Shown here in pieces: positions 31,749-58,918 of a DNA stretch of 64,000 bases (within the stretch, counting starts at the first letter, position 1; every line of letters starts with the position of its first letter). The stretch lies in NCBI RefSeq assembly GCF_030816965.1, contig NZ_JAUSYQ010000002.1, positions 5,305,501-5,369,500 of the forward strand, in the 5' to 3' direction. The translations under genes and the position numbers were made by a program. Source of the DNA: Streptomyces canus (GTDB lineage Bacteria; Actinomycetota; Actinomycetes; Streptomycetales; Streptomycetaceae). The notes beneath the pieces were generated by a model, which did no database searches, was not told where the DNA came from, and was given only the letters and a program-made list of their open reading frames with translations.

Positions 31749-33536
31749 ATGGAGCACGAGCACAGAAGCTTCGTCGAACTCATGTGTGCGAGGGCGGCGC
31801 AGCACGGTGACCGGACCGCCCTGATCTTCAGTGCGGATCCGCTCCGCGCCGAGGCCGACGAGACCATGACGTACGGGGAACTCGACCGGTCCGCCCGCCA
31901 GGTCGCCGCGCTGTTGCAGGATCGGTTCTCCGCCGGTGACCGGCTGCTCATCCTGCATCCCTCCGGGCCGGGGTTCGCACGATCCCTCCTGGGCTGCATG
32001 TACGCGGGCCTGGTCCCGGTGCCCGCGCCGCCGCCCGACGGCCGTCCGGGGCGGCAGGCCGACCGGCTCGCCGCGATCGCCCGGGACGCGGGAGCGGCCG
32101 GGGCCCTGGCCGACGGCACGGACCTGGAAGTGCTCGTGTCCTGGACCAAGGAACAGGACCTCGCGGGCGTGAGCGTGCTCGCGCCCCACTGCGCCGAAGC
32201 CGCGGACGAGCTGCCCGCGGCGCACCGGTGGCGGCCGCCCCTGGCCGACCCGCATGCGCTGGCCTTCCTCCAGTACACCTCAGGGTCCACCGACGACCCG
32301 AAGGGCGTCATGGTCGACCACGCCAACCTGCTGGCCAACGCCCGGATCCTCGCGGCGATCGCCGACATGAGCGCCGACCGGCCGGTGGGCGGCTGGCTGC
32401 CGCTCTACCACGACTTCGGCCTGATCGGGCTGCTGCTCACACCGCTCGTCCTGGGCGGTCGCAGCGTGCTGATGCCGCCGACGGCCTTCCTCAAGCGCCC
32501 GCACACGTGGCTGACGCTGATCGACCGGCACGGCATCGACTTCTCTCCCGCTCCGAACTTCGCCTACGACCTGTGCCTCCAGCGGATCACCGACGAGCAG
32601 TTGGCCCGGCTGGACCTCTCGCGCTGGCGGTGCGCGGTGAACGGCGCCGAGCCCGTCCAGGCAGCCACCGTCGAGGCGTTCACCCGGCGGTTCGCCGCCG
32701 CCGGGCTGCGTCCCGAGGCGATGCTCCCCGGCTACGGCATGGCCGAGACGACCCTGGTCGTCTCCGGCGACCGGCCTGCCCGCCGCGCCGTGATCACCGA
32801 GGTGGACGCCGCCGCGTTCGAGCGCGGTGAGCTGCTGTCCCCGGCCCCCGGCACACCCGCGCACCGCATCGTCAGCAGCGGCCCCGCCGAGCACCTCGAC
32901 ATCCGGATCATCGACGCCGAGGCGGGCATGACGCTGCCGGACGGCCGGGTCGGCGAGATCTGGGTGCGCGGACCGAACGTCGCCCGGGGCTACTGGGGAC
33001 GGCCCGCCGAGACCCGGCGCGTCTTCGACGCCGTCACACCCGACGGGGAGAGCGGCTTCCTTCGCACCGGGGATCTGGGGATCCTGCACGAGGGCGAGCT
33101 GTACGTCACGGGCCGCAGCAAGGAGCTGATCATCGTCCGCGGCCGCAACCTCTACCCGCAGGACCTGGAGGCGGCGACGCGGGAAGCCCACCCGGCCCTG
33201 GAACGCGGGGTCGGGGCGGCCTTCTCCGTCCCGGTGCCCGAGGAGGAGGTCGTGGTGGTCCGCGAGTGCCGGGCCGACCGGATCCCGCCGGACGAGCTGG
33301 CCCACGTCGCCGCGCGTGTCCGCGACCGCCTCACCCGCGACGTCGGGGTGCCCGCCCACAACGTCGTACTCGTGCCTCCCGGCACGGTGGCGCGGACCAC
33401 CAGCGGCAAGATCCAGCGGCGGCTGCTGCGCCGACGGTTCCTCGGCGGCGAGCTTCCGATCCTCCACGCTGAACTGTCGCCGGGCGTCCGCGCCCGGCTG
33501 GACGACGCGGCGGGCGGTGATGCCTCGTGGCGGTGA
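31749..33536 (+). CDS. Fatty acyl-AMP ligase (FAAL)
   Basis: A 595-residue adenylate-forming enzyme. The P-loop is LQYTSGSTDDPKGVMV (about residues 178-193), followed by GWLPLYHDFGLIG, PGYGMAETTL, the YWGRP and FLRTGDLG motifs, and a C-terminal SGKIQRRLLR with the catalytic Lys. FAAL-type proteins, unlike acyl-CoA ligases, activate fatty acids as acyl-AMP and pass them to an ACP. Two ACP genes are downstream. It is the first gene of the operon; GGGTGGGG precedes the ATG. Its stop forms a GTGA overlap with the first micro-ORF of the 74-bp array. Confidence 0.93.
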   Translation: MEHEHRSFVELMCARAAQHGDRTALIFSADPLRAEADETMTYGELDRSARQVAALLQDRFSAGDRLLILHPSGPGFARSLLGCMYAGLVPVPAPPPDGRPGRQADRLAAIARDAGAAGALADGTDLEVLVSWTKEQDLAGVSVLAPHCAEAADELPAAHRWRPPLADPHALAFLQYTSGSTDDPKGVMVDHANLLANARILAAIADMSADRPVGGWLPLYHDFGLIGLLLTPLVLGGRSVLMPPTAFLKRPHTWLTLIDRHGIDFSPAPNFAYDLCLQRITDEQLARLDLSRWRCAVNGAEPVQAATVEAFTRRFAAAGLRPEAMLPGYGMAETTLVVSGDRPARRAVITEVDAAAFERGELLSPAPGTPAHRIVSSGPAEHLDIRIIDAEAGMTLPDGRVGEIWVRGPNVARGYWGRPAETRRVFDAVTPDGESGFLRTGDLGILHEGELYVTGRSKELIIVRGRNLYPQDLEAATREAHPALERGVGAAFSVPVPEEEVVVVRECRADRIPPDELAHVAARVRDRLTRDVGVPAHNVVLVPPGTVARTTSGKIQRRLLRRRFLGGELPILHAELSPGVRARLDDAAGGDASWR

Positions 33537-33604
33537 CCGACCTGTTGATCGCTACCCGCCAGGTTCGCCTCGGCGGTTCCGACGTGGGCGGTGACGTCTG
33601 GTGA
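33527..33604 (+). CDS. Micro-ORF 1 of the 74-bp array
   Basis: Codes for a 25-residue peptide beginning VAVTDLLIATRQVRLGG. An in-frame GTG at 33533 overlaps the FAAL stop as GTGA, so translation could pass straight from FAAL. Its own stop overlaps micro-ORF 2 as GTGA. Whether a stable product is made is unknown. Confidence 0.35.
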   Translation: MAVTDLLIATRQVRLGGSDVGGDVW

Positions 33605-33678
33605 AAGTCACCGAGCGGCTGATCGACACCGGCAGGGTCGGCCTCGGCGGTTCCGATGGGGGCGGTGGCGCCTCGTGA
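33601..33678 (+). CDS. Micro-ORF 2 of the 74-bp array
   Basis: 25-residue peptide beginning VKVTERLIDTGRVGLGG; GTG start, stop overlapping micro-ORF 3 as GTGA. The LIDTGRV core is shared with the N-terminus of the following dehydrogenase. Confidence 0.35.
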   Translation: MKVTERLIDTGRVGLGGSDGGGGAS

Positions 33679-33752
33679 CGGTCATCGAGCGGCTGATCGC
33701 CGCGGGCCGTGTTCGCCTCGCCGGCTTCGTCGCGGGTGGCGATGCCTCATGA
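33675..33752 (+). CDS. Micro-ORF 3 of the 74-bp array
   Basis: 25-residue peptide beginning VTVIERLIAAGRVRLAGF; GTG start, stop overlapping micro-ORF 4 as ATGA. Confidence 0.35.
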   Translation: MTVIERLIAAGRVRLAGFVAGGDAS

Positions 33753-33826
33753 CGGTGACCGACCTGTTGATCGACATGGGCCGTGTTCGCCTCGCCGGCT
33801 TCGACGGGGGCGGTGACGTCTCGTGA
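33749..33826 (+). CDS. Micro-ORF 4 of the 74-bp array
   Basis: 25-residue peptide beginning MTVTDLLIDMGRVRLAGF, the only copy with ATG and the closest to the dehydrogenase N-terminus (MNATDLLIDTGRVDLGGF). Its stop overlaps the dehydrogenase start as GTGA. Confidence 0.4.
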   Translation: MTVTDLLIDMGRVRLAGFDGGGDVS

Positions 33827-35538
33827 ACGCCACCGACCTGCTGATCGACACCGGCCGGGTCGACCTCGGCGGCTTCGACCGGGCACTCGGCGATCCCGCC
33901 GACCCCGCGGCGCTCCTCTCCTACGCCCGCAGCGCCGAGCTGGACCGGGGTGAGTCGTTCCCCGTCGACATCTGTCGGGAGCTCGACCGGATGGGGCTGC
34001 CGCGCCTGTACGTGCCGGCCGAGTTCGGCGGGGCGCTGACCCGCTACGACGAGCTCGTCGCGGCGCTGCGGGCGGTGGCGCGCCGCGACCTGACGGTCGC
34101 GATCGGGCACGGCAAAACGTTTCTCGGGGGCGTCTGCATGTGGCTGGCGGGCCGCGCGGAGCAGGCGCGCGAGCTCGGCGCCGACATCATCGCCGGGGCA
34201 CCGGTGTCATGGGGACTGACCGAGCGCGGCCACGGCAGTGACCTGCTCGCCGGCGAGACGGCCGCCACGCCGGAGCCCGGCGGATTCCGCGTGAACGGCG
34301 AGAAATGGCTGATCAACAATGCCACCCGAGGCACGCTGCTCTGCCTTCTCGTGCGCACCCGGCCGGAGGGCGGGCCGCGCGGCTTCAGCCTGCTGCTGGC
34401 CGACAAACGGCGCCTCCCGGCGGACCGCTGGCGGCCCCTGCCCAAGGTGCCCACGCACGGCATCCGGGGCGCCGACATCAGCGGGATCACGCTGGAGGAC
34501 TGCCCGTTCCCGGCCGACGCGCTGATCGGCGAGCAGGGCGCCGGTCTGGAGATCGTGCTCAAGGCGTTGCAGCTCACCCGGACCGCCTGCACGGCCCTGT
34601 CGCTGGGCGCCGCCGACCAGGCGGTGCGGCTGGCCGAGGAGTTCGCCGCGCGACGCGAGCTCTACGGCCGTCGGCTGATCGACCTGCCGCACGTACGCCG
34701 CGTGCTCGGAGAGGCGTACGCCGCGCTTCACGCCGCCGAGATCGTGAGCGTGCTGGCGGCGCGCAGCGTGCACACCCTGCCGCAGGAGATGACCGTCATC
34801 TCCGCGGTGGCCAAGTCGTACGTCCCGACCCGCGCCGACGAGCTGATCGCCGCCTGCGGCGAGCTGCTGGGCGCCCGCGCCTTCCTCACCGAGGTCCACG
34901 AGCACGGCGCGTTCCAGAAGCTGGAACGCGACCACCGGGTGGTCGGCATCTTCGACGGGAGCACCTTCGTCAACCAGCACGTCCTGATCAACCACTTTCC
35001 GCTGCTGGTCCGCGGCCATCAGGAGGGCACCGCCGACGAAGACGCCGTACGCCGTACCGCCGACCTGTCGGCCCCGCCGCCCCCGGCCCGGCTCGATCGG
35101 CTGAGCCTGCTGGCGCGCGGCGGGTGCAGTCTCACGCAGAGCCTGCACACCGCGAGCGGCGAACTGCGTGCGCCGGCGTCCGCGGGTCGGGCGCCCGCTC
35201 GCGTGGCCGAACTCGCCGAGGAACTCACCGACAGCTGCGACCGGCTCCACCGCGAGCTGGCGCAGAGCCCGCCCGCCTCCCAGTACGCGCAGCCGGAGGC
35301 CTTCGCGCTTGCGCGCCGCTACGAGGACTGCTTCGCGGGTGCGGCCGCCCTGAGGGTGTGGCTGCACAACCGCACGCCCGGCGAGGACCCGCTGTGGCTG
35401 GAGGCCGTCCTCACCTACGTGCTGCGGTCGCTGCGCCCGCCGGGACGGCCGACCGACGGCGAGGTGTTCGACCGGCTCCTCGACGCACGTACGGCCGGCC
35501 GTCCCAGCGCCCCTCCGACCTCGGTGGTCACCTCGTGA
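33823..35538 (+). CDS. Acyl-CoA dehydrogenase family protein, divergent (first of three)
   Basis: A 571-residue flavoprotein of the acyl-CoA dehydrogenase fold: helical N-domain, middle beta-domain with GLTERGHGSDLLAGE (FAD/acyl site) and NGEKWLINNATRG, and a C-terminal helical bundle plus an extra 150-residue helical extension. At the position of the catalytic base motif YEGT it reads IFDGSTF with Asp378, so the Glu base is replaced by a shorter acid. It probably acts on an ACP-bound acyl chain supplied by the FAAL. It overlaps the next dehydrogenase by 4 bases. Its N-terminal codons form the last unit of the 74-bp array. Confidence 0.88.
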   Translation: MNATDLLIDTGRVDLGGFDRALGDPADPAALLSYARSAELDRGESFPVDICRELDRMGLPRLYVPAEFGGALTRYDELVAALRAVARRDLTVAIGHGKTFLGGVCMWLAGRAEQARELGADIIAGAPVSWGLTERGHGSDLLAGETAATPEPGGFRVNGEKWLINNATRGTLLCLLVRTRPEGGPRGFSLLLADKRRLPADRWRPLPKVPTHGIRGADISGITLEDCPFPADALIGEQGAGLEIVLKALQLTRTACTALSLGAADQAVRLAEEFAARRELYGRRLIDLPHVRRVLGEAYAALHAAEIVSVLAARSVHTLPQEMTVISAVAKSYVPTRADELIAACGELLGARAFLTEVHEHGAFQKLERDHRVVGIFDGSTFVNQHVLINHFPLLVRGHQEGTADEDAVRRTADLSAPPPPARLDRLSLLARGGCSLTQSLHTASGELRAPASAGRAPARVAELAEELTDSCDRLHRELAQSPPASQYAQPEAFALARRYEDCFAGAAALRVWLHNRTPGEDPLWLEAVLTYVLRSLRPPGRPTDGEVFDRLLDARTAGRPSAPPTSVVTS

Positions 35539-37289
35539 TCGACAGGACCGGGTCGCGCGACGCCCGCTCGGGCATCGCGCGGCCGGAAGACGATCCTGCG
35601 GCCGCCTCCGTCGCCGACCTCGAACGCCGGTTCGGCGACCCCTGGGATCCGGGCAATCCGACCGGCCACGCCGCGGTGCTGGCGGCCGACGAGGCGGGCG
35701 AGATGCTCGCCGCGGGCGAACGGCTGCTGGACGACTACGGGTTGAACGCCGCATTCGTCCCGCCCGAACTGGGCGGGCGGCTGACCCGGCTCGACCACCT
35801 CATCGAGGTGATGCGGGTCGTCTTCCGGCACGACCCCTGCCTGGGACTCGGATACGGAGCCGGCAGCCTCATCCCCGCGGTCAACGTCTGGACCGCGGGC
35901 GACGAGCGGCAGCGCCGCCGGATGGCCGACGTGCTGCTGGCGGGTGGCCGGGCCGTCTCCGGCTACCACGAGCTGGCACACGGCAACGACTTCGCGCGGG
36001 CCGAGTTCTCGGCGCTGCCGGGCGACGACGGGCGGCTACGGCTCAACGGGCGCAAGGAAGTGATCGCCAATGCCCGGCGCGCCGAGGCCATGGTGCTCTT
36101 CGCGCGCACCTCGCCCGCTCCGGGCAGCCGCAGCCACTCGCAACTGTTCGTGGAGAAGGCGGACCTGCCCGCGGGCGCGCCGGTGCATCTGCCGCGCTTC
36201 CACAGCGCGGGGATGCGCGGGGTCCAGCTCGGCGGGCTGGAGTTCCGGGACTGCCCGATCCCGGCGGACGCGGTGCTGGGGGCACCCGGGCTCGGCGTGG
36301 AGATGGCGCTGCGCTCCTTCCAGGTCACCCGCACCGCATTGCCGGCGATGACCGCGGGCATCCTGGAGACCGGCCTGGAGGTCACCGCCCGGTTCACGGA
36401 GGAGCGCGTCCTGTACGGGCGGTCGCTGGCCGAGATGCCGTACATCCGCTCGATCCTCGCCGACGCCTTCACCGACCTGCTGATCTGCGACTGCCTGGCC
36501 ACCGTGACCGCGCGCGCGGTACATCTGCTCCCCGGCGAGACCAGCCTGTACGCCTCGGCCGCCAAGTACTTCGTGGCCACCCTCCTGATGGACGCCATGG
36601 AGGCGCTGTCGCGGGTGCTGGGCGCTCAGTTCTACCTCCGCGACGGCGGCTACGGGATCTTCCAGAAGCACCTGCGCGACCTGGCGCCCGCGGGCTTCGG
36701 CCACACCGCACGCGTGGCCTGCCTCAGCACGGTGCTGCCTCAGCTGCCCCGGCTGGCCCGCAAGGGGTGGCTGGACGACACCCAGCCGCCCGCCGGGGTG
36801 TTCCGCCTCGGCGCGGACCTGCCACCGCTGCCCTTCGAGCGGCTGTCGGTCGGCTCGGGCGGGCGTGACAGCCTCAGCGCCTCGCTCTCGGCTGCCCTCG
36901 GCTCCCCCGAACTGGACGGCGAGCTGCGCCACTTGGTCTCCGTCATCGCGGCCGAGCAGGCCGACCTACGACGCGAATGCGCAGCCCTGACCCCCGCCGA
37001 CCTCTCCGTCGCCGCCCGGCCCGAGGCGCTGCGGCTGGCGGCGCGGTACGCCGCGGTGCTCGCGGCGATCGCCTGCGTGAACGTCTGGCTCCACAACCAG
37101 GGGCGGCGCGACGCGTTCCTCAGCGATCCTCTCTGGGCCGTCGCGGCGCTGGGCCGGATCGCCGAACGGGTGGGCCGCGACCCCGGGCAGCGGCCCCCGC
37201 ACATCACCGAACGACTGTCGGCGGAGGTCCTCGCCCGGCACCGCGACCGCCGCGGGCTGGGCCTGTCGAACCGGCGTCTGCCCGGATAG
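35535..37289 (+). CDS. Acyl-CoA dehydrogenase-like protein lacking the catalytic base (second of three)
   Basis: A 584-residue paralogue of the preceding protein with the same layout and length, including the long C-terminal helical extension. It has GYHELAHGND in place of the TEPxxGSD-type FAD loop, and where the EGT base motif should be it reads GFGHTARVAC (near 388-397), so no Glu or Asp is available. It may be a non-catalytic partner or carry out another reaction. GTG start overlaps the upstream stop (GTGA). The pair may form a heteromer, as seen for some mycobacterial FadE pairs. Confidence 0.85.
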   Translation: MIDRTGSRDARSGIARPEDDPAAASVADLERRFGDPWDPGNPTGHAAVLAADEAGEMLAAGERLLDDYGLNAAFVPPELGGRLTRLDHLIEVMRVVFRHDPCLGLGYGAGSLIPAVNVWTAGDERQRRRMADVLLAGGRAVSGYHELAHGNDFARAEFSALPGDDGRLRLNGRKEVIANARRAEAMVLFARTSPAPGSRSHSQLFVEKADLPAGAPVHLPRFHSAGMRGVQLGGLEFRDCPIPADAVLGAPGLGVEMALRSFQVTRTALPAMTAGILETGLEVTARFTEERVLYGRSLAEMPYIRSILADAFTDLLICDCLATVTARAVHLLPGETSLYASAAKYFVATLLMDAMEALSRVLGAQFYLRDGGYGIFQKHLRDLAPAGFGHTARVACLSTVLPQLPRLARKGWLDDTQPPAGVFRLGADLPPLPFERLSVGSGGRDSLSASLSAALGSPELDGELRHLVSVIAAEQADLRRECAALTPADLSVAARPEALRLAARYAAVLAAIACVNVWLHNQGRRDAFLSDPLWAVAALGRIAERVGRDPGQRPPHITERLSAEVLARHRDRRGLGLSNRRLPG

Positions 37290-37336: not shown

Positions 37337-37642
37337 ATGAACAGCCCCGAACCGGCCCCATCGGCCCCGACGCCCCCGCCGGACACCGAACTGCGGAGTT
37401 GGCTGCGCGCGCGGGTCGGCCACTACGCCCAACTCGACGCCGCCGCCATCGACCCCACCGCCACGCTGACGACGTACGGGCTCGACTCGGTCTACGCGCT
37501 GATCCTCTGCGGCGACATCGAGGACCACCTCGGCCTGGCTCTGGAGCCGACGGTGGCCTGGGACCACCCGACGATCGACGCCCTGGCGCGGCATCTGGAG
37601 GAGACGCTCGCCCAGGCGTCCCCGTCGGGGGAGAGCCGATGA
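37337..37642 (+). CDS. Acyl carrier protein 1 of the FAAL cluster
   Basis: A 101-residue carrier protein with a disordered Pro-rich N-terminus and the attachment motif TYGLDSVYALIL (Ser in GLDS). It resembles PKS-type ACPs. Likely receives the acyl group from the FAAL. AAGGAG precedes the ATG; its stop overlaps the KAS III-like start as ATGA. The start is far inside a longer open frame that belongs to antisense bias. Confidence 0.88.
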   Translation: MNSPEPAPSAPTPPPDTELRSWLRARVGHYAQLDAAAIDPTATLTTYGLDSVYALILCGDIEDHLGLALEPTVAWDHPTIDALARHLEETLAQASPSGESR

Positions 37643-42530: not shown

Positions 42531-43186
42531 CCGGCCGTACGGCCGCCGCCGACGCATGGATCCGGTACCGGCGGACCGCCCGACAGGACGGCCTCGTCCG
42601 GGCGTTGACCCTGCTGTGCGAGACCGTCGGCGACGGCGGGCCGCCCCGCGGTCCGGGCGGGCACATGGTGGTGCCCGTCGGCGTCGCCGGTGCCGACGCC
42701 GGGGACGTCGTGACGACCTTGACGGTGGAGGAGGGCACCGTCGTCGCGTTGCGGAGCCGGGCCGAACCAGGCGTGTCCATGACTCCTCGGCAGGAACGGG
42801 CGGCATGGGCGCTGGGGCTGACCTGCCTGCGCTTCGGCCTCTCCGAGCGGCTGCTCGACGCGGTGCTCGCCCATCTCGGCGGCCGTACCGTCGGCGACGC
42901 GAAGCTGCTCCACCAGCAGATGGTCAAGGGCGGCGTCGCGGAGGCGGTGATCGAGCAGCTGGAGATCGAGACCATGCTCGCCGGAGCCACGCCGGGCGAC
43001 CTCGACGACGACGTCCTGGCCGGCCTGAACGCCCAGATCACCGAGACCGACCGGATGCTGCTGCGGTTGCTCGGCGCCGTGAGCTTCCTGGCGGACGGGC
43101 CGGGCCAGGTCGCCCGGGTGTCCGAGCTGATCGCCGACGTCCACTTCGGGTCGGCCCGCGCAGGGGAGCACGGGGGAGCGGCATGA
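42527..43186 (+). CDS. Helical protein resembling an isolated acyl-CoA dehydrogenase C-terminal half
   Basis: A 219-residue protein. After a short alpha/beta start (VVTTLTVEEGTVVALRS, like the dehydrogenase middle domain), the rest is helical, and LTCLRFGLSERLLDAVLAHL plus KLLHQQMVKGGVAEAVIEQL have the rhythm of the acyl-CoA dehydrogenase C-terminal bundle. No FAD-binding TEPxxGSD or catalytic EGT is present. It overlaps the complete dehydrogenase that follows by 4 bases, so it may be its non-catalytic partner subunit. Identification is tentative. Confidence 0.6.
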   Translation: MTGRTAAADAWIRYRRTARQDGLVRALTLLCETVGDGGPPRGPGGHMVVPVGVAGADAGDVVTTLTVEEGTVVALRSRAEPGVSMTPRQERAAWALGLTCLRFGLSERLLDAVLAHLGGRTVGDAKLLHQQMVKGGVAEAVIEQLEIETMLAGATPGDLDDDVLAGLNAQITETDRMLLRLLGAVSFLADGPGQVARVSELIADVHFGSARAGEHGGAA

Positions 43187-44343
43187 TCGAGCTGGACGAC
43201 AGGACACGGGCGATCCAGCGCCAGGCCCGCGCGTGGGCGCAGGAGCTCAAGCCCCTCGCCCTGGAACTCGACCAGGACCCGGACGCGATCCACCGCCATC
43301 TGGACGTGGCCATCGTGTCGTACCTGACGAGGATGACGGTGCCGCCCGAGTTCAATCCCGACCCGGTGGTCATCGACGGGCGTCCCTTCTACGGCACCGG
43401 GACCCTGGAGCGGGTCGTCTTCGCCGAGGAGGTGGCGGTCGGTGACGCCGGCATGCTGCTCGCGGCGCCCGGGCCGGTGATGTCGGGTGTGCTGGTCGAC
43501 GCCATGGGTGACGAGCAGCAGAAGAAGTGGTTCTACAGCCGGATCATGGAGAAGCCCACCTGGACCTTCTTCGCGCTGACCGAGCCGGACCGCGGCTCGG
43601 ACGCGGGGGCGATGAACACCACCCTGACCCCGGACGGCGACGACCACTTCGTGCTCCGGGGAGCCAAGCGCTACATCGGCAACGCGGCCCGCGCCGACCT
43701 GGGCATCGTCTTCGCCCGCACCCGTCCGGGGCCGCTCGGCGTGACCGCGGTCCTCACCGAGACCTCGGCCGCCGGGTTCACCGCCGAGCCCCTGGAGACC
43801 ATCGGCCTGCGCGGCCTGCGCATCACCGCCGTCACCCTCGACGACGTACGCGTGCCCGCCGGCCAGGTCCTCGGCAGGCATCTGCGGGCCACCCAGCGGG
43901 GCATGTGGAGCGCGGTGCAGGGACTGAACCGCCTGCGCCCCGGCGTCGCCGCGTTCGGTCTGGGCATCGCGCGGGCCGCGTACGAGTACGTCCTGGCCAA
44001 CCGGCGCACCCTGAACACGGCCGAACGTCACCGGCTCGACCGGCTCGGCCTGCGCCTGACGGAGCTCCGGCAGCTCATCTGGCGGTCGGCGATCGCCGTG
44101 GACGACAACGATCCGGCCGCCGGCTCCCTGGCGTCGGCGGCGAAGGCACGCGCCTCGCGCCTCGCCGAGGAGGCGACACTCGAAGCGCTCGGCTGCTTCG
44201 GCCCCGGCGCTCGACTGGACCATCCCCTGCTGGACAAGCTCGCCCGGGACGCCCGTGGTGTGGAGTTCATGGAGGGGACCGGCAACATCCAGAAGCTCAA
44301 CCTGTTCACCGGCCTGGTCCAGGGGCATCTCCGCCGTGACTGA
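43183..44343 (+). CDS. Acyl-CoA dehydrogenase, canonical (third of three)
   Basis: A 386-residue flavoenzyme of normal length. It has FALTEPDRGSDAGAMNTT (FAD/acyl loop), the RGAKRYIGNA segment, and the intact catalytic base motif FMEGTGNIQK, with Glu in the EGT. Probably desaturates an acyl-ACP in the pathway. The start at 43183 is chosen by ATGA overlap with the preceding gene. In contrast to the two upstream paralogues it lacks a C-terminal extension. Confidence 0.9.
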   Translation: MIELDDRTRAIQRQARAWAQELKPLALELDQDPDAIHRHLDVAIVSYLTRMTVPPEFNPDPVVIDGRPFYGTGTLERVVFAEEVAVGDAGMLLAAPGPVMSGVLVDAMGDEQQKKWFYSRIMEKPTWTFFALTEPDRGSDAGAMNTTLTPDGDDHFVLRGAKRYIGNAARADLGIVFARTRPGPLGVTAVLTETSAAGFTAEPLETIGLRGLRITAVTLDDVRVPAGQVLGRHLRATQRGMWSAVQGLNRLRPGVAAFGLGIARAAYEYVLANRRTLNTAERHRLDRLGLRLTELRQLIWRSAIAVDDNDPAAGSLASAAKARASRLAEEATLEALGCFGPGARLDHPLLDKLARDARGVEFMEGTGNIQKLNLFTGLVQGHLRRD

Positions 44344-45118
44344 CGGCGGCCTGGTGCCGACGGGACCGGGGCGGCGCGACGACATCGACGCCCCCGAGGT
44401 GAATGTCTGGACGGTGCCGCTGAACGGGCCGCCGGCCACGGTGGCGACGCTGTCCCGGATCCTGTCGGCGGGTGAGGCCGAGCGCGCCGACCGCTGTCGC
44501 TTCGAGAACGACCGCAGGCGTTTCATCATCGCGCATGGAGCGCTGCGGCTGATTCTGGCCGGCTGTCTCGATGTTCCACCCGAGGAACTGCGCCTGGAGC
44601 GGGGACGTCATGGCAAACCACGGCTCGCGGGCAGCTCCGAACTGCGGTTCAACCTCTCCCACTCCGGCGAACTCGCTCTGGTGGCGGTGACCCTGCACCG
44701 AGAGGTCGGGGTCGATGTGGACCGGCTGCGGCCGGGCCTGCCGGTCGAGCGGTTCGCCGAGCGTTTCTTCCCCGCATCCGACGCCCGTTTCGTGGCCGCG
44801 GCCGCCGGGCCCGCGGAACGCGCCGAACGCTTCCTGCGGCTGTGGACCCGCAAGGAGGCCGTGGTCAAGGCCGCCGGAGCGCGCCTCGCACAGGGCCTGG
44901 GCCTGACGGTGCTCACCGACACCGACACCGACACCGACGTCGACATCTACGTCGTCCGCGATCCGTCCGGGCAGATCCCGGACGCCTGGTCGGTGTGCGA
45001 TCTGCCGGTACCGGCCGGCTGTCTGGCGGCGCTGGCCGTCGCGGGGGCGGCGGCCCCCAGAATCTCGGTCAGACATACCGAACTACAGGTGGCGGCGCCT
45101 CGGCGATACATCCCGTGA
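44336..45118 (+). CDS. 4'-phosphopantetheinyl transferase (Sfp type)
   Basis: A 260-residue PPTase that turns apo-ACPs into holo form using CoA. Motifs: RRRFIIAHGALRLIL, FNLSHSGELALVAVT, GVDVDRL (Mg2+ ligand Asp) and RLWTRKEAVVKAAG. The GTG at 44336 overlaps the dehydrogenase end by 8 bases and is preferred over a longer open frame. A short Thr-Asp dipeptide run (TDTDTDTDVD near 198-207) comes from a 6-base repeat at about 44920-44938. It is the last gene of the cluster and would serve the two ACPs. Confidence 0.92.
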   Translation: MTDGGLVPTGPGRRDDIDAPEVNVWTVPLNGPPATVATLSRILSAGEAERADRCRFENDRRRFIIAHGALRLILAGCLDVPPEELRLERGRHGKPRLAGSSELRFNLSHSGELALVAVTLHREVGVDVDRLRPGLPVERFAERFFPASDARFVAAAAGPAERAERFLRLWTRKEAVVKAAGARLAQGLGLTVLTDTDTDTDVDIYVVRDPSGQIPDAWSVCDLPVPAGCLAALAVAGAAAPRISVRHTELQVAAPRRYIP

Positions 45119-46752: not shown

Positions 46753-48039
46753 GTGGGCAACAATCCGTATCCGAGCCTCGGTTGGAACCCGGTACCCGGA
46801 ATTCCCGAGCAGGTCACCTCCCTCTACCGCAAGGTGAAGTCCGCGGCCGACACACTCAACAACTGCCACCGGCAGATCGAATATCTGCTCGGGGCGAGCT
46901 CCAGCTGGCAGGGAGACGCGGCGAGCGCGTTCCGGGACACGCTGGACGGCGACCTCAAGACCGCCATGATGAACGCCGGTCATTCGCTCGACAAAGCCGC
47001 TGCGGCGCTGGGCACATGGGAAGGCGATCTGACCTCCCACCGCGACCTGGCCAAGAAGTACGACGATGCCGCGCGCGAGAACAAGGGTGATGTCGAAAAG
47101 GCCCGGACCCGCTACGACCAGGCCAAGGGGAACCCGGACCTCAAGCTCGCCGGCAAGGAATACCCCAGCCAGGCGGAGGCGGATGCCGCGACGGAGCGCC
47201 TGCGGACCGCCGAGCGCGAACTGAACGCGGCCACCACCCACCTCAACAACGCCAACACCGCCTACAACGACGTCATCGCGAAGGCGAAGGAGCTGGAGGG
47301 CACCCACGCCGACGCGGCCGAGGCCGTCGCCCGCAGCCTCGACGAGGCCGACGACAAGCTGGCCCCCAAGGAACCGGGGTGGTTCAGCAAGGCCCTCAGT
47401 GCCATCGGTGAGGGTCTCAAGGCAGTCGGCGAATTCCTCGTGGAGCACGCCGGAACCATCGGAGCCATCGCAGGACTGCTGGCCCTGCTCCCCACACCGC
47501 TGGCCCCGGTCTTCGCCGGTATCGCGGTCGCGGCGAGCGCGGTCTCCATGGCCAAGAACCTTGCGAGCGAGGACTTCAGAGACTCGCTGATGGGCGAGTA
47601 CGGCTTCAAGGAAGGGGCGTTCGCCTGGGCCGCCATGGCCGGTGACAGCCTCGGCATGGTGCCCGGCGTCGGCGCCCTCGCCAGGGCCGGCAGCGAGGCG
47701 GGTCTCGCGGCGGCGGTCGCACGAGAGGGCGGCGAGGCCCTGTCGGTGGGCTCGAAGCTGGGTGCGTTCGGCAGGGAAATCGTGCCCGCGTTCAACTTCA
47801 AGGCTCTCGACGTGGCGACCGAACCCGCGACCGGAGCGCTCCAGTACGGCATCAACGGCGTCAACGTGGCGGCGAACATGGCGTCGTCCCTGGAAAGCCT
47901 GGGCGTGTTCCCGAAGAACGGTCCCGGACATGACGCGTCCGAGATCACGAAGGGTGTGGCTGCCTCGACAGGTCTGAAGGGCGGCGTGACCGACATCATG
48001 ACGGACGTCGCCGAAATGATGAGGGGTGTCCACCTGTGA
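46753..48039 (+). CDS. Putative type VII-secreted protein with WXG-like N-terminal domain
   Basis: A 428-residue protein. Residues 15-105 form a helical hairpin with SSWQGDAASAF (W52-x-G54), a WXG-like secretion domain. Residues about 105-215 are a long, charged coiled coil; a hydrophobic pair follows at about 225-262 (IGAIAGLLALLPTPLAPVFAG); residues 280-428 are Ala/Gly-rich with no toxin motif I can name. This build (WXG domain, stalk, hydrophobic region, variable end) is that of polymorphic toxin-like effectors. GTG start; the stop overlaps the next gene (GTGA). Confidence 0.75.
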   Translation: MGNNPYPSLGWNPVPGIPEQVTSLYRKVKSAADTLNNCHRQIEYLLGASSSWQGDAASAFRDTLDGDLKTAMMNAGHSLDKAAAALGTWEGDLTSHRDLAKKYDDAARENKGDVEKARTRYDQAKGNPDLKLAGKEYPSQAEADAATERLRTAERELNAATTHLNNANTAYNDVIAKAKELEGTHADAAEAVARSLDEADDKLAPKEPGWFSKALSAIGEGLKAVGEFLVEHAGTIGAIAGLLALLPTPLAPVFAGIAVAASAVSMAKNLASEDFRDSLMGEYGFKEGAFAWAAMAGDSLGMVPGVGALARAGSEAGLAAAVAREGGEALSVGSKLGAFGREIVPAFNFKALDVATEPATGALQYGINGVNVAANMASSLESLGVFPKNGPGHDASEITKGVAASTGLKGGVTDIMTDVAEMMRGVHL

Positions 48040-49378: not shown

Positions 49379-49380
49379 TA

Positions 49381-49412
49381 GTCCACTCGGAGCGCAGTCC
49401 ACTCGGAGCGCA
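49381..49412 (+). repeat. Two tandem copies of a 16-bp unit
   Basis: GTCCACTCGGAGCGCA occurs twice in direct tandem (49381-49396, 49397-49412), followed by a partial copy, right after the operon stop. Too short to assign a role. Confidence 0.8.
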
Positions 49413-49428
49413 GCTCGGAAAGCGACGG

Positions 49429-49525: not shown

Positions 49526-52186
49526 TCAGGACGCGTCGCCGTACTGGAGGCCGCGTCCGTTGGTGCCGACGTAGACGCGCCCGAAGGTGTCGGGGTCGCC
49601 GGTGACGACGCCGACAGCGCCGATGCTGCCCCACTGGTGGGCGTCGTCGTTGATGCGGAGCCAGGTGGCGCCCTTGTCGGTGGAGCGGAAGACTCCGGTG
49701 ACGTCCTTGACCGTACCGATCAGGTACAGGGCCTGGTAGGAGGCGCCCGGCGCGGCCTTGCCGAAGCCGAGAGCGGAGGCGGACCGCACCGTGGTGAGCG
49801 CGGTGAAGGTCCGGCCGCCGTCGGTGGAGTGCAGCAGCCCCTTGTCGCCGCCGGAGATCCACAGGTCCCCGGCGATGCCGGGGACGGCCGTGAGCCGGCC
49901 GACGGGCAGGCCGGTGGCGCGGGCGGTGAAGGTCGCGCCGCCGTCGGTGCTGGCGTAGAGCTTGCCGTCGGCCAGTGAGTAGAAGGTCCTGGCCGATGAG
50001 CGGTCGGCGACAACCACGGCGCCGCTGCCCAGGCCGCCGGCCTTCGACCAGCTCGCCCCCTTGTCGGTCGAGCGGTACGGGGCCTGACCGGCCTCGGTCC
50101 AGACGATGACGGAGCCGTCCGCCGAGAGCGCGACCCGGCCGCTGTCGGCGCTGCCCACCGGCTCCGACCTGAAGCCGCTCCAGCTGCTGCCGCCGTCGGT
50201 GGAGTAGGCGCCGTCCTGTGCGCCGCCACGGCCGACGCGGACCATCACCGAGGGGTTGGACTGGGCGAAATCGATGTCGGTGCTGGTGGTCATCTTCGGG
50301 CTGTCGAGCCGCCCGGCGGGCACCTTGGTCAGGGAGCTGCCGTACCGGAAACCGCCCAGGTCACCCATGGCGGTGATGGCGGTGGCGCCACCGGGTGGGG
50401 CGATCACGTCCGAAAGCGCGGTCTCCTCCAGTCCTCGGGCCCCCACCGTCCAGTGACTGGTGCCGCCGCTGTCGGTGGCGGTGACGTCCTTGCTGCCCCA
50501 GATGCCGCTGCCGGTGCCGTACAGCACGTGCCCGGAGTCGAAGGGATCGATGGTCAGGGCGGTCATCCAGTGCCCGATGCCGGTACCGACGTAAGGAGCG
50601 GCGGAGGCATCCCGCACCGACTTGGCGGCCAGCGCCTTCCAGGTCGTACCGCCGTCGGTGCTCCGGTAGAGCTCGTCCTCGGGCCACCAGCGGTCGAGGG
50701 TGGTGACCATCACCGTGGACGGCTTCTGCGGGTCGACGGCCAGACCGGAGAATCCGTAGCTGCCCGTGGACGGGGAGACGTTCTTCCACGTCCCGCCCCC
50801 GCCGGCCGGCGTGTACTTCCACACCGAGCCCGCGGTCACGCCGTTGGGCCCGAGGGCGTCGGTGTACGTCAGGAACAGCGAGCCGTCACCGGAGAGCACG
50901 CCGTGCTGCGGCAACTGGCCAGTGGGCTGCCCGGAGACGGCCTGCCAGGTGCTGCCCCCGTCGGTGGAGCGGTAGAGCGGGTGGGACTTGTCGGCGACGC
51001 CGACGTAGACCGTCCTGCTTCCGGCCGGGCCGTACGTCACGAAGGAGATGCCCGCGCCGCTGCCCGCCCCGTCCTTGACGGGGAACGAGGCGACCTGACC
51101 CCATGTCACGCCGCTGTCGGTGCTGCGCCACAGGCCGTTCTTGCGGGTGCCCAGCAGCAGGGTGCCGTGGTTCCCCGGGTCGATCGCGAGCCGTTCGCCC
51201 GCCCCGCGGCCGTCCTCGTTGGAGCCCAGCTTGAAGGGCAGATCGGTGCGCTGGAAGGTGCGGCCCCGGTCCGTGGAGCGCAGGATCGCACCGTTGCCCG
51301 CCCAACTGTTGGTGTAGGTGCCCGCCGCGACGTAGAGCCGGTCGGGGGCGACGGGGTCGGTGGCCAGCGAATCGATGCCCAGCAGGTTCCAGTCCTTCTC
51401 ACCGAACCGGTCGGTCAGCGGGATCCACTGCTCGGCCGCGGTGTCCCAGCGGTAGGCGCCGCCCATGTCGGTGCGCGCGTACAGCAGACCCTTCTCGACC
51501 GGGTTGAACACCAGACCGGTGACGTAACCGCCGCCCACCACCTGGGCGTTGTTCCACACGTACGGCCCGGTCGCGGCCGTGGTTCGCGCACCGCCGGCCC
51601 CCGCCGCCTGGGGCTGGGCCGTTTTCACCAGCTTCCACTGCTGGTTGGTGCTGTGTCTCTCGGGATACTGCACGACCGCCGCACCCTGGGCCGTGGAGCC
51701 TCCGGAGACGTCCAGGACCAGGCCGCTTCTGCGGGAGGTGAAGGTGACGGCGTCGGAACCGCTCACCTCGTCGATCCGCCACTGCTGGGAGGTGGAGGAG
51801 CTGTCGGTCTGCTGCTCGGCGGCCGCCTTCCCGGCGGTCGAGTCGCCCGCTATGCCCAGCACCTTGCCGCTGTTGCGGTTCACCAGCTCGTAGTAGCCGT
51901 CCCCGGTGGGCCTCAGCCTCCACTGCTGGTTGGCGGTGTTCTGGTCGGTCCACTGCTGGATACGGGTGCCGTCGGCGGTGGAGAAGCTGTTGACGTCCAG
52001 CACCTTGCCGCTGCGCACGGAGGCCAGCCGGTAATAGGCGTCGCCGTCGACCGTCGCGGCCTGCGAGTCCTCCTGCGTGAACAGGAAGTACGGCACGACG
52101 ATGGCGGGCACACCGAGCAGAAGACCGGTCGCGGTCCAGCGACGGCGGTGACGCCCGCGGCGCCCGCCGTTCGGGGGGTTGTTCAT
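49526..52186 (-). CDS. Secreted xyloglucanase, GH74, with N-terminal ricin-type domain
   Basis: An 886-residue exported enzyme. An Arg-rich start and signal/anchor segment (about 18-38) lead to a ricin-B (CBM13) trefoil at 48-188 with three QQW repeats. Residues 207-886 form the two seven-bladed propellers of GH74, with YARTDMGGAYRWD (Asp240, equivalent to the catalytic Asp of GH74) and a later IDPFDSGHVLYGTG where the second Asp lies. Many Asp-box repeats (STDGGxTW) are visible. GH74 enzymes cut xyloglucan backbones. Ricin domains at the N-terminus are less usual. ATG at 52186 is preferred over a longer upstream open frame by the signal position. Confidence 0.9.
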   Translation of the reverse strand: MNNPPNGGRRGRHRRRWTATGLLLGVPAIVVPYFLFTQEDSQAATVDGDAYYRLASVRSGKVLDVNSFSTADGTRIQQWTDQNTANQQWRLRPTGDGYYELVNRNSGKVLGIAGDSTAGKAAAEQQTDSSSTSQQWRIDEVSGSDAVTFTSRRSGLVLDVSGGSTAQGAAVVQYPERHSTNQQWKLVKTAQPQAAGAGGARTTAATGPYVWNNAQVVGGGYVTGLVFNPVEKGLLYARTDMGGAYRWDTAAEQWIPLTDRFGEKDWNLLGIDSLATDPVAPDRLYVAAGTYTNSWAGNGAILRSTDRGRTFQRTDLPFKLGSNEDGRGAGERLAIDPGNHGTLLLGTRKNGLWRSTDSGVTWGQVASFPVKDGAGSGAGISFVTYGPAGSRTVYVGVADKSHPLYRSTDGGSTWQAVSGQPTGQLPQHGVLSGDGSLFLTYTDALGPNGVTAGSVWKYTPAGGGGTWKNVSPSTGSYGFSGLAVDPQKPSTVMVTTLDRWWPEDELYRSTDGGTTWKALAAKSVRDASAAPYVGTGIGHWMTALTIDPFDSGHVLYGTGSGIWGSKDVTATDSGGTSHWTVGARGLEETALSDVIAPPGGATAITAMGDLGGFRYGSSLTKVPAGRLDSPKMTTSTDIDFAQSNPSVMVRVGRGGAQDGAYSTDGGSSWSGFRSEPVGSADSGRVALSADGSVIVWTEAGQAPYRSTDKGASWSKAGGLGSGAVVVADRSSARTFYSLADGKLYASTDGGATFTARATGLPVGRLTAVPGIAGDLWISGGDKGLLHSTDGGRTFTALTTVRSASALGFGKAAPGASYQALYLIGTVKDVTGVFRSTDKGATWLRINDDAHQWGSIGAVGVVTGDPDTFGRVYVGTNGRGLQYGDAS

Positions 52187-52533
52187 GGGACGTGCTCTCC
52201 TTGCGTACCGGTCACCAGAGAAGGCGGATCCAAGATCCGTAACGGCCGGATCCGACTCCTTGTGGTCACAGGCGACACAAAGGGTTGCTTTGAGCCGGAA
52301 ACTTTTTACCGGCCACCTCGTAAGGACGCCGAGCCGGGCGTGGGCACGCGGTCCTGAGCTCGATCGGGAACCCGGTTGCGCACGACGACGGCTCAACTCG
52401 GTTGCGGCCCAGCAGGGGTACCGGGAGCCGGCGCCGCAGTCGGCGCCTCCTGCCGAGCCGTCCGCTCCGGGGCGGCCGCACGGCGTGCGCGGTTCACTCG
52501 TAGGGCGCACACGGGTCGCGCGTTCTGCGTCGC
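52187..52533. promoter_or_regulatory. Divergent promoter region, GH74 gene / membrane protein gene
   Basis: No gene seen in about 350 bases. The A/T-richer stretch near 52255-52315 (GTGGTCACAGGCGACACAAA, AAACTTTTTACC) is a candidate control region for the minus-strand GH74 gene. Confidence 0.4.
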
Positions 52534-53889
52534 ATGGATCTTCTGGTGTCCATGGCCCACACAGGCGACGAGCCGCTCTCAAACGGGGAACGCAGCGAAC
52601 TGGATGAACTGCGGCACCGCGTGGGCGCCCTGGAGAGTGCGGCGCACCCGCGGGCGGCACGGCATCACTATGTCCGGTCCACGGGCTCCGTCCTGCTGAT
52701 CCTCTTCGCGGCCCTGCTGTCGCTGCTGTCCGTCATCGCGGTCTGGGCGAACAGCATTGTGCGGGACACCGACCGCTACGTCGCCACGGTGGGACCGCTG
52801 GCCTCCGATCAGGATGTGCAGAAGGCCGTCACCAACCGGGTCACCGACGTGGTGCTGGCACAGATCGACGTGGACGCGTTGGTCAAACAGTTGCAGGACG
52901 CCGTGTCGGAGAAGGGCGTGCCGCCGAAGGCGGCCCAGCTGGTCGGCGACCTGGACGGGCCGATCACGAGCGGTCTGAAGCAGCTGGTCAGCGGCATCGT
53001 GGAGCGGGTGGTCAGCAGCAGTGCCTTCGAGACGGTCTGGGTGGAGGCCAACCGCAGGGTGCACTCGTCCGTCGACAAGGCCCTGACGGGCGAGAGCGGC
53101 GGCGCGGTCTCGCTGAAGAACGACGAGGTGGCCATCGACGTGGCACCGATCGTGGCCCAGGTCAAGGAGCGCTTGGTCGGCGCAGGTCTCGGAGTCGCCG
53201 CGAAGATCCCGGACGTCCACACGGACTTCGTGGTGGTCCAGTCGAAGGACATCGGCAAGATCAGGACCTATATGCGGGTCCTGGAGATCATGGGCAGCTG
53301 GCTGCCCCTCATCGCCCTGCTGGTGGCCGCGGCGGGGGTGTACACCGCGTTCAACCGCCGGCACGCGCTGATCGGGGCCGGGTCGGCGGTGTTCGTGGCC
53401 ATGCTGGTCCTCGGCATCACCCTCACCGTCTTCCGGGACGTCTACCTCGACCATCTGCCCTCCGGCGCGTCCCCGGCCGCCGCCGGAGCGGTGTACGACG
53501 CGCTGATCAAGTTCCTGCGCGCCGGTGTACGGGCGCTCGGTGCCGTCGCCCTCATCGTCGCCGTCGGCGCTTTCCTCAGTGGCCCGTCCCGGATCGCCGT
53601 CCTCGTCCGCATCGGCTGCCGCGGGAGTATCGGCGCCCTGCGCGACGTGGCGGTCTCCGGAGGGCTTCGGCTGGGGGCGGTCGGGCGGTTCGTGCACCGC
53701 TTCAAGCGCTGGATCGGGGGCGCGATCCTGGTGGTCGCCGCGATCGTCCTGTTCACCTGGACCTACCCGACCACGATGGTCGTGGTGTGGACCACGGTCG
53801 TCGTGCTGGTGGGCTTCGCGATCCGTGAGTTCCTGGACACCGGCTCCGCCCCGGCCGCCACCGGGTCCCGGACCACCGCGGCTTCCTGA
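52534..53889 (+). CDS. Polytopic membrane protein, function unknown
   Basis: A 451-residue protein. TM1 lies at about 51-73, followed by a 175-residue extracytoplasmic helical domain (DTDRYVATVGPLASDQDVQK then VTDVVLAQIDVDALVKQL), then at least four further membrane segments (about 247-267, 275-296, 325-350, 385-415). This is a common actinobacterial membrane family without known role. The start is uncertain; ATG at 52552 is an alternative. The stop is 11 bases from a converging gene. Confidence 0.8.
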   Translation: MDLLVSMAHTGDEPLSNGERSELDELRHRVGALESAAHPRAARHHYVRSTGSVLLILFAALLSLLSVIAVWANSIVRDTDRYVATVGPLASDQDVQKAVTNRVTDVVLAQIDVDALVKQLQDAVSEKGVPPKAAQLVGDLDGPITSGLKQLVSGIVERVVSSSAFETVWVEANRRVHSSVDKALTGESGGAVSLKNDEVAIDVAPIVAQVKERLVGAGLGVAAKIPDVHTDFVVVQSKDIGKIRTYMRVLEIMGSWLPLIALLVAAAGVYTAFNRRHALIGAGSAVFVAMLVLGITLTVFRDVYLDHLPSGASPAAAGAVYDALIKFLRAGVRALGAVALIVAVGAFLSGPSRIAVLVRIGCRGSIGALRDVAVSGGLRLGAVGRFVHRFKRWIGGAILVVAAIVLFTWTYPTTMVVVWTTVVVLVGFAIREFLDTGSAPAATGSRTTAAS

Positions 53890-57589: not shown

Positions 57590-58918
57590 ATGACGCTGAA
57601 CATTCCTGATGCGCCGCTACGGCGCCCCATGGCGGTGTGGTTCGCGGCGGTGATGGCCGTAGTGATCGCCGCCGCCGTCCTCGCTCTGACGCCGACACGC
57701 GCAAACGCCCTTGCCAGACCCGTTCCCTTGGGCACGGCGGGAAGCTTCGCGGTACTGGCCGGTGCGGCAGTCACCAACACCGGCCCCTCGCGGATCTACG
57801 GTGATCTCGGGGTGAGTCCGAAAACGGCCATCACCGGATTCCCGCCCGGCCTCGTGTACGGGGAGAAGCACTCCGCGGACGCTGTGGCGCTCCAAGCCAA
57901 GCTCGACCTGATCCAGGCATACAACTATGCCGCCGGCCAGTCGGCGGACGTTACGTACCCCAGCGCTCCCGCCCCCGTGGAGCTCGGTGGTAAGAGGCTG
58001 AACCCGGGCGTCTACAAGGCACCCAGCTCCGCGGGTATCACCGGCACGCTGACTCTCGACGCGCACGGCGACTCCAGTGCCGTATGGGTGTTCCAGGTCG
58101 GTTCGACTCTGACGACGGCTTCCGGCAGCAAAGTGTCTCTTGTCAACGGTGCCTCGCCGTGCAACGTGTACTGGCAGATCGGCAGCTCGGCCACCCTCGG
58201 TACCAACTCCGCCTTCGTGGGCACCATCCTGGCCGACACATCGATCACCGTCACCACGGGAGCGACCATTCGCGGCCGGGCGTTGGCCGGCAGCGGTGCG
58301 GTGACGCTGCAAAGCAATACGATCAACCGCAGTGGCTGTCCGGCCGGCGGCACCGGTGGCACCACCGGCGGTCCCACGTCAGGCGGCATCACGGGCGCTA
58401 CCACGGGCGCCGTCATCGGTGGCGTGCCGACGGGTGGCGTTATCGGTGGCGTGCCGACGGGTGGCGTTATCGGTGGCGTGCCGACGGGTGGTGGAACCGG
58501 TGGCGTGCCGACGGGTGGCGGAACCGGTGGCGACCAGGGTGGTGTCATCGGCGGCGTCCTGCCGTCGGGCGGAATCATTGGTGGTGTCCTGGACGGTTCC
58601 GTCGCGGGCACCACATCGGGCGGCACTCCGAGCACCCCCCCGGGCGGCTCGGTCGGTGGTCCGATCGATGGCAACGGCCATGACCACGGCGGGAAGCCCG
58701 ATGACCATGACCACGGCGGGAAGCCCGATGACCAAGGCCCCGGCGGTAAGCCCGATGACCACCACCAGAGTGGCAACCCGGATGACCACCACCAGGGTGG
58801 CAACCCGGATGACCACCACCAGGGTGGGAAGCCGGATGACCACCACCAGGGTGGGAAGCCCGGCAAGGACGAGGGCTATGACAGTGATCATGAAGGCAAC
58901 GACAAGAAGTCTGCCTGA
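57590..58918 (+). CDS. Secreted ice-binding-like (DUF3494) protein with repeat tail
   Basis: A 442-residue exported protein. A signal peptide (about 1-41, VMAVVIAAAVLALTPTRANA) is followed by a DUF3494/ice-binding-like beta-helix at about 42-240: LGTAGSFAVLAGAAVTNTGP, GDLGVSPKTAITGFPPG and VFQVGSTLTT are hallmark strings. The tail is low-complexity: about five VIGGVPTGG units (276-312) and seven nine-residue units with PDDHHQGG (364-427), ending in charged residues. In the family the domain binds ice or serves as an adhesin head; here the role is unknown. The His/Asp-rich tail might bind metal or wall. Confidence 0.85.
   Translation: MTLNIPDAPLRRPMAVWFAAVMAVVIAAAVLALTPTRANALARPVPLGTAGSFAVLAGAAVTNTGPSRIYGDLGVSPKTAITGFPPGLVYGEKHSADAVALQAKLDLIQAYNYAAGQSADVTYPSAPAPVELGGKRLNPGVYKAPSSAGITGTLTLDAHGDSSAVWVFQVGSTLTTASGSKVSLVNGASPCNVYWQIGSSATLGTNSAFVGTILADTSITVTTGATIRGRALAGSGAVTLQSNTINRSGCPAGGTGGTTGGPTSGGITGATTGAVIGGVPTGGVIGGVPTGGVIGGVPTGGGTGGVPTGGGTGGDQGGVIGGVLPSGGIIGGVLDGSVAGTTSGGTPSTPPGGSVGGPIDGNGHDHGGKPDDHDHGGKPDDQGPGGKPDDHHQSGNPDDHHQGGNPDDHHQGGKPDDHHQGGKPGKDEGYDSDHEGNDKKSA
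58415..58530 (+). repeat. 27-bp tandem repeats coding for VIGGVPTGG
   Basis: About four to five near-identical 27-base units (ATCGGTGGCGTGCCGACGGG core) inside the ice-binding-like gene. Confidence 0.85.
58679..58867 (+). repeat. Seven 27-bp tandem repeats coding for PDDHHxxG(G/N)
   Basis: Units begin at 58679, 58706, 58733, 58760, 58787, 58814 and 58841, each 27 bases, graded in sequence from GACCACGGCGGGAAG to CACCAGGGTGGGAAG, in frame within the ice-binding-like gene. Confidence 0.85.

Follow-up and report, generated by a model that had tools for sequence, protein, structure and literature searches.

Termination–reinitiation coupling through an NTGA motif, in which the stop and the start codon overlap (−4 nt), is usually described as joining neighbouring genes. 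In the bicistronic design, a short synthetic leader open reading frame (ORF) holds the Shine-Dalgarno site of the next gene, and its stop overlaps the next start. Here, we describe a tandem array composed of such overlaps, located between the genes of a fatty acyl-AMP ligase (FAAL) and an acyl-CoA dehydrogenase (ACAD, or ACAD1 where a second one must be told apart) in a stretch of 64,000 nucleotides from Streptomyces canus (contig NZ_JAUSYQ010000002.1, positions 5,305,501 to 5,369,500), referred to below as the window. The element is real and unusual: micro-ORFs coupled stop to start follow one another in a natural tandem chain, which derives from a coupled gene junction and varies between close relatives. 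Among closely spaced prokaryotic genes, the −4 nt overlap is reported to be by far the most frequent spacing (PMC12548453). In reporter work, the last 15 nt of the upstream gene were enough for coupling, and spacing of about 20 nt nearly abolished reinitiation (PMC10666635); a loss of coupling at longer spacing is also described in a review, as is Rho-dependent polarity on untranslated RNA (PMC12548453).

Tandem Repeats Finder (TRF) gave the array the top score among the 27 rows obtained for the window (Table 1), and a repeat finder used as a second method returned spacings of 74, 74, and 74. The original prediction, made from the letters of the window, described an exact 74-bp array of five copies, every one of which forms a 25-residue micro-ORF whose stop overlaps the next start. 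The number of copies and their distance were confirmed (period 74, 5.0 copies, 0% indels), and the period is exact; however, the four micro-units of the window are only 70–81% identical pairwise (they differ by 19–30%). The micro-ORFs proper are four, as the fifth array copy is the 5′ end of the ACAD gene itself, and the predicted four-base overlaps are all in place (GTGA at 33601, GTGA at 33675, ATGA at 33749, and GTGA at 33823, the last being the ACAD start). It was also proposed that the relay from FAAL to the dehydrogenase is unbroken owing to a GTG at 33533. The GTGA is indeed there, in the frame of micro-ORF 1, but the first peptide coupled in this way has 23 residues, and the first GTG of this micro-ORF, at 33527, reads GTGG and is not overlapped; the second GTG lies two codons further on in the same frame. 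The FAAL stop and the ACAD start are separated by 286 nt (33537–33822).

Judged by eye against the FAAL tail and the ACAD head of array-free relatives, the unit consists of a start codon, about 53 nt resembling the ACAD head (MTVTDLLIDTGRV...), and then about 20 nt resembling the FAAL tail (...GGDAS and the stop). The make-up of the array from the gene junction is well supported. Each unit carries one Shine-Dalgarno-like site, one start, and one stop and thus constitutes a complete micro-cistron. The ideal Shine-Dalgarno sequence is GGAGGTGA, and GGCGGTGA, which is near it, sits in the FAAL-tail part of the unit, six bases 5′ of the next start. As in the bicistronic design, the preceding ORF contains the site of the next ORF, 6 nt before its start, and ends there. 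In the window, the predicted duplexes with the anti-Shine-Dalgarno string have energies of −7.1 to −10.9 kcal/mol, the site at −7.1 being weak; across the array junctions of all four genomes in which arrays were found, the range is −7.1 to −13.8 kcal/mol. For random positions of the window, the median was −4.5 kcal/mol, with the strongest 5% starting from −9.5 and the strongest 1% from −12.1 kcal/mol, which leaves the GGTGGCGA site outside the strongest 5%.

Table 1. Coordinates of the array, its micro-ORFs, the Shine-Dalgarno-like sites, and the adjoining genes in the window.
Feature	Position	Strand	Description
74-bp tandem array	33512..33883	+	TRF: period 74, 5.0 copies, 76% matches, 0% indels, score 359
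GTGA overlap	33533..33536	+	FAAL stop (33534-33536) over second in-frame GTG of micro-ORF 1
Micro-ORF 1	33527..33604	+	25 aa; 23 aa from 33533
Micro-ORF 2	33601..33678	+	25 aa; GTGA at each end
Micro-ORF 3	33675..33752	+	25 aa; entry GTGA, exit ATGA
Micro-ORF 4	33749..33826	+	25 aa; entry ATGA, exit GTGA
Shine-Dalgarno-like GGCGGTGA	33513..33520	+	before 33527; anti-Shine-Dalgarno duplex −10.1 kcal/mol
Shine-Dalgarno-like GGCGGTGA	33587..33594	+	before 33601; −10.0 kcal/mol
Shine-Dalgarno-like GGCGGTGG	33661..33668	+	before 33675; −10.9 kcal/mol
Weaker Shine-Dalgarno-like GGTGGCGA	33735..33742	+	before 33749 (sole ATG start); −7.1 kcal/mol
Shine-Dalgarno-like GGCGGTGA	33809..33816	+	before ACAD start 33823; −10.8 kcal/mol
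FAAL gene	31749..33536	+	upstream partner; PF00501, E 2.3e-70; close homologues named 'fatty acyl-AMP ligase'; tail (~20 nt) in each unit
ACAD1 gene	33823..35538	+	571 aa; PF00441/PF02770/PF02771; first ~53 nt in repeat unit
Second acyl-CoA dehydrogenase gene (ACAD2)	35535..37289	+	GTG overlaps ACAD1 stop as GTGA

The explanation that we favour, and consider somewhat more probable than not, is that the array represents a duplication hot spot at a coupled gene junction, kept translationally transparent by serial termination–reinitiation. A tandem duplication across the overlap copies the FAAL tail, with its Shine-Dalgarno-like site and stop, together with the ACAD head and its start. If the unit has a length of 2 mod 3, as is the case for units of 74, 47, and 44 bp, then the sequence shows that a complete micro-cistron with a 4-nt overlap on either side arises in a single event, because the start of the first copy runs to the stop of the second. 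Ribosomes leaving FAAL would reinitiate at every overlap and pass via the four micro-ORFs to ACAD, and such serial reinitiation would keep ACAD coupled and the whole insert covered by ribosomes. That ribosomes use the chain is likely. If coupling acts over a short range, an untranslated insert of 100–500 nt should uncouple ACAD and expose the mRNA, while an overlapped chain should not. ACAD would lose its coupling through any duplication or indel that interrupts the relay, and the array would therefore grow, shrink, and diverge mainly in ways that keep the relay; we infer that selection maintains the chain. In addition, the similarity of tail and head in codon register makes the relay-keeping lengths the commoner product.

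The comparison with relatives was based on several searches. Among 392 genomes of the genus searched with ACAD as a query (E ≤ 1e-60), 111 gave matches; the sole close one besides the own genome was G164 (96%), and the next among the matches listed reached 57%. A species-level contig scan gave 32 loci, including four at 90–95% identity (one of them, L062, at 89.7% in another comparison). Six genomes with ACADs about 90% or more identical were compared: the window, G164, S. canus DSM 40017 (L059), S. canus V4I20 (L060), S. spongiae (L061), and Streptomyces sp. S3(2020) (L062). Arrays are present in four of the six, with micro-ORF numbers of 0, 0, 1, 4, 4, and 5. S. canus V4I20 and Streptomyces sp. 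S3(2020) have no array and show a plain GTGA overlap between FAAL and ACAD, as does an Actinomadura locus (L063, 73%); the ancestral state was presumably such a FAAL stop overlapping the ACAD start. G164 has a single 37-aa micro-ORF into which an in-frame 9-bp repeat is inserted; its FAAL tail, too, carries a repeat, of 45 bp and likewise in frame. There are four micro-ORFs of 25, 15, 25, and 25 aa in S. canus DSM 40017, where one unit has 44 bp, and five of 16, 32, 64, 16, and 41 aa in S. spongiae, where 47-bp units stop and restart, 48-bp units fuse in frame, and the last unit is of the 74-bp kind. The FAAL stop and the ACAD start lie 106, 262, and 498 nt apart in these three genomes. The relay is intact in all four array genomes, through 14 micro-ORFs and 18 links, each of which is NTGA (the first one of the window via 33533). 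At the level of sequence, the architecture, its presence in four genomes, and its junction-derived composition can be taken as established. The translational relay suggested in the original prediction thus holds as an architecture, since the chain stays intact despite differing units and copy number and Shine-Dalgarno-like sites precede the starts. As observations that would count against it, the prediction had named relatives lacking the array or frame-breaking indels. The outcome was mixed: two of the five close relatives are array-free, yet all four arrays have kept their frames.

Beyond this group, 87 loci were examined, some of them near-duplicates, of which 44 were without FAAL by the motif used, 3 had arrays, and 40 were array-free with FAAL. 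Of these 40, 38 had a start in frame within −4 to +3 of the FAAL stop, and at a TRF score of at least 50 the sole repeat listed near their junctions had a 6-bp unit (11.5 copies) and lay within the FAAL tail of locus L052, some 104 to 36 nt upstream of the stop. The hot spot therefore belongs to the close group and is not shared by FAAL-ACAD pairs in general. Further close relatives were found neither in the genus of G164 (41 genomes) nor in the family (394 genomes), and the ACADs of 7 plasmid records were all below 60% identity. The array DNA itself matched 113 of the 392 genus genomes (E ≤ 0.001); among the matches listed, those beyond the own locus and G164 were stretches of 25–83 nt and were treated as background. 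The tails of FAAL homologues vary (18 sequences read, of 25 proteins listed), and those of P0130 (649 aa), P0137, and P0127 are extended and repetitive. The P0130 tail holds about five 12-aa repeats, so expansion also affects the FAAL end of the junction. The annotated start of the S. chiangmaiensis ACAD P0018 (515 aa) falls about 56 codons downstream of the usual position, and the junction may be altered.

The array is probably not young. A protein tree with 24 rows, built from ACAD residue 31 onward, unites the window, G164, and S. canus DSM 40017 with P0003-P0005 in one group of six rows (support 100/99); S. spongiae falls outside it, in an unresolved part of the tree. The window unit w4 is nearer to unit c1 of S. 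canus DSM 40017 (0.84) than to any unit of the window (best 0.81), and c2 of the same strain is nearest to w3 of the window (0.84 over the 44 columns of c2). This interleaving indicates that the unit types probably predate the split of the two. The proportion of synonymous differences (pS) among the micro-ORFs, 0.33–0.35, is higher than that of ACAD codons from 31 onward between any two of the six genomes (0.10–0.18), so the array is old, or faster-changing, or both. A recent amplification of the 5′ end of the gene had been considered in the original prediction; the amplification is supported, but the unit also includes the FAAL tail, and these pS values make a recent date improbable. ACAD itself is strongly constrained in the array taxa (between the window and G164, the nonsynonymous proportion, pN, is 0.014 and pS is 0.110), and such sustained constraint in genomes with arrays fits the relay.

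Whether the relay is kept by selection was assessed on a tree restricted to eight full-length units, without the shortened c2, the expanded g1, and the remaining units of S. spongiae. With neutral placement of the 73 inferred changes, 3.35 stops or broken downstream junctions were expected and none was found (P(0) 0.030), and synonymous changes amounted to 31.9 vs 25.1 expected (P 0.045). The length changes read by eye (74, 47, 45, a 30-nt loss giving 44, 48, 9, and 12) kept the relay in all cases. An alternative is that the same duplications left an inert by-product: ACAD would be translated by fresh initiation at the Shine-Dalgarno site in front of it, translation of the micro-ORFs would be incidental or absent, and their phase would come from similarity in codon register. 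We regard this as possible, with roughly one chance in four. It would agree with the strength of the ACAD site, which is the same in genomes with the array (n = 4, −10.1 to −10.8 kcal/mol) and without it (n = 3, −10.1, −10.1, and −10.7 kcal/mol), and with the fact that lengths of 2 mod 3 are favoured in the absence of selection. It does not readily account for units that differ by 19–30% in the window with the chain still intact in four of four array genomes, nor for the overlap lost at 33527 being made good by an in-frame one 6 nt on, and untranslated RNA would invite Rho polarity (PMC12548453).

Several observations weigh against serial reinitiation kept by selection, some of which also speak for the by-product. 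If the lost overlap at 33527–33530 is counted as one break, the substitution test gives P(≤1) 0.138. In 36 array-free loci, 56 NTGA junctions between long ORFs were collected mechanically, some of them homologous to each other. Tail and head matched strongly (12 or more of 16 positions) in 57 cases; the offset was 2 mod 3 in 35 of these, 0 in 13, and 1 in 9. Tail/head similarity alone therefore favours 2 mod 3, the kept lengths are weak evidence of selection, and the mod-3 argument as strong proof was abandoned, as codon-register similarity explains part of it. Selection for the relay is thus weakly supported, the tests being marginal and partly post hoc. The absence of the array from two of five close relatives means that it is dispensable. 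Each unit has its own Shine-Dalgarno-like site, so fresh initiation may also occur. Studies of spacing disagree: the review that describes Rho polarity also cites work in which coupling was undiminished to +25 nt, and some coupling was still seen as far as +350 nt, in E. coli. An insert that interrupts coupling would then not have to be lethal to the system, and none of the spacing studies named in section 6 of the review was done in Streptomyces (PMC12548453). A structured RNA was considered and rejected, the fold of 33500–33840 being unremarkable (z 0.63). The Rfam search of 32900–34400 (E ≤ 0.1) gave one match, CRISPR-DR29 at 33479–33498, which lies outside the array, scored 25.6 bits vs the gathering value of 39, and was taken as chance.

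Short NTGA relays also arise mechanically in this GC-rich DNA, and a bare short chain is no rarity. A survey of 864 kb from the own genome (the window plus 40 further stretches, each of 20 kb; about 8% of the whole) found 37 NTGA-coupled chains of at least three micro-ORFs, including that of the window, four of them with at least four; chains of at least three arise by chance in 715 kb of fetched loci as well. The claim that bare micro-ORF chains are improbable was given up, since background DNA has them. A second relay of four at a tandem period was not found in this survey. Among 67 mechanically found relays in which at least one micro-ORF joins two ORFs of at least 200 codons, that of the window alone has four links. 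Coupling at the period of the array was seen in two of 50 tandem arrays (period at least 20, at least 1.9 copies, score at least 80), namely that of the window and a two-copy 170-bp array (L143).

Tuning of the enzyme ratio by the array is possible. The stronger proposal, a natural rheostat of variable copy number, born from a duplicated stop/start overlap, in which the number of links would set ribosome passage and change fast between strains, seems doubtful. Its adaptive form appears less probable still; here a fast-changing number of micro-cistrons would set the ACAD:FAAL ratio and retune the pathway, either because overlaps pass on part of the ribosomes or because additional sites load more. 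The spread of micro-ORF numbers across the six close genomes agrees with it, and in Bacillus licheniformis the output of engineered tandem units of Shine-Dalgarno site and start was described as rising with copy number (PMC9723656). However, constraint on the micro-ORFs is no higher than that on the ACAD head, copy number is linked to no phenotype, and the effect could go either way.

The original prediction also raised a peptide family with the core LIDxGRVxL. ACAD and micro-ORFs 2 and 4 share this core, but micro-ORF 1 reads LIATRQVRL and micro-ORF 3 LIAAGRVRL. That the array encodes a tandem set of related, functional small peptides is very improbable, even though 7 of 25 columns are invariant in the eight 25-aa micro-ORFs and the ratio of nonsynonymous to synonymous rates (dN/dS) is below 1 (0.58 for the window units, 0.33 for those of S. 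canus, 0.47 for all seven micro-ORFs). The peptides are fusions of the ACAD head and the FAAL tail, to which the invariant positions (the start, L7, V13, L15, G17, G21, and G22) mostly belong; the S. spongiae units mostly carry a different core; and with 0.45 for the six ACAD heads, which are themselves loosely constrained, no purifying selection beyond that on the parent sequences is seen. The 64-aa micro-ORF of S. spongiae had no relative at E ≤ 1. An artefact of assembly or sequencing, to which tandem repeats are generally prone, can be practically dismissed: the copies have diverged, the genome of the window consists of two contigs, and three more genomes have arrays at this place.

Downstream, no array was present in the TRF list at the ACAD1/ACAD2 junction. 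The ORF at 37337–37642, which we take to be similar to acyl carrier protein (ACP) from a GLDS stretch, is followed by matches to KAS III, ATP-grasp, and pyridoxal phosphate (PLP) decarboxylase. A row of FAAL, one or two ACADs, and ACP is described as the lipid-starter module of lipopeptide clusters (PMC9113097). Further along the window, a third acyl-CoA dehydrogenase ORF and then a 4′-phosphopantetheinyl transferase ORF lie at 42556–45118, with overlapping coordinates. An ORF at 46753–48039 has a type VII secretion system (T7SS) signal match and a WXG100 match under its cut-off, a perfect 16-bp direct repeat (2.1 copies) is located at 49380–49413, and an ORF of 1044 aa on the reverse strand (49526–52660) matches ricin-type lectin, sortilin-like, and BNR repeat families. 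Two closely spaced 27-bp tandem arrays, with a period that is a multiple of 3, occupy 58403–58584 (5.9 copies) and 58683–58862 (6.7 copies).

Duplication over a stop/start overlap offers a one-step route to new, complete small cistrons with a ribosome site, start, and stop. Overlaps of this kind are the commonest motif (PMC12548453), and the bias of the tail/head matches toward 2 mod 3 suggests that small cistrons may arise in this way more generally. One and the same gene pair, joined in nature by 0, 1, 4, or 5 links, provides a test system for repeated reinitiation and bears on whether operons tune enzyme ratios via repeat number. A natural tandem array of stop/start micro-ORFs was not found in a search of open-access literature that covered mainly titles and the beginnings of abstracts, and the words 'repeat' and 'duplicat' are absent from the main text of PMC12548453. 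The gene order FAAL, two ACADs, and an ACP-like ORF resembles the lipid initiation module FAAL-ACAD(-ACAD)-ACP; however, the description of that module (PMC9113097) treats the enzymes, not the junction, and the downstream genes found here are not those of a nonribosomal peptide synthetase. Leader peptides and short upstream ORFs that feed reinitiation are similar in having a short ORF whose stop is near the start of a structural gene, but there a leader gene is involved, while here a tandem array derives from a gene junction (PMC4833913). The engineered multiple translation initiation sites (PMC9723656) likewise consist of tandem units, each holding its Shine-Dalgarno site and start codon; they are hairpin-built and placed in the 5′ leader of one gene, whereas in the window stop/start-overlapped micro-ORFs lie between genes. 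Compared with the bicistronic design, the array is natural, intra-operon, tandemly multiplied, and variable in copy number. The closest likeness in mechanism is to NTGA termination–reinitiation coupling, as every junction here is such an overlap, including the FAAL-ACAD junction without an array; the difference is that a tandem chain of four micro-ORFs, or five in a relative, stands between the two genes.

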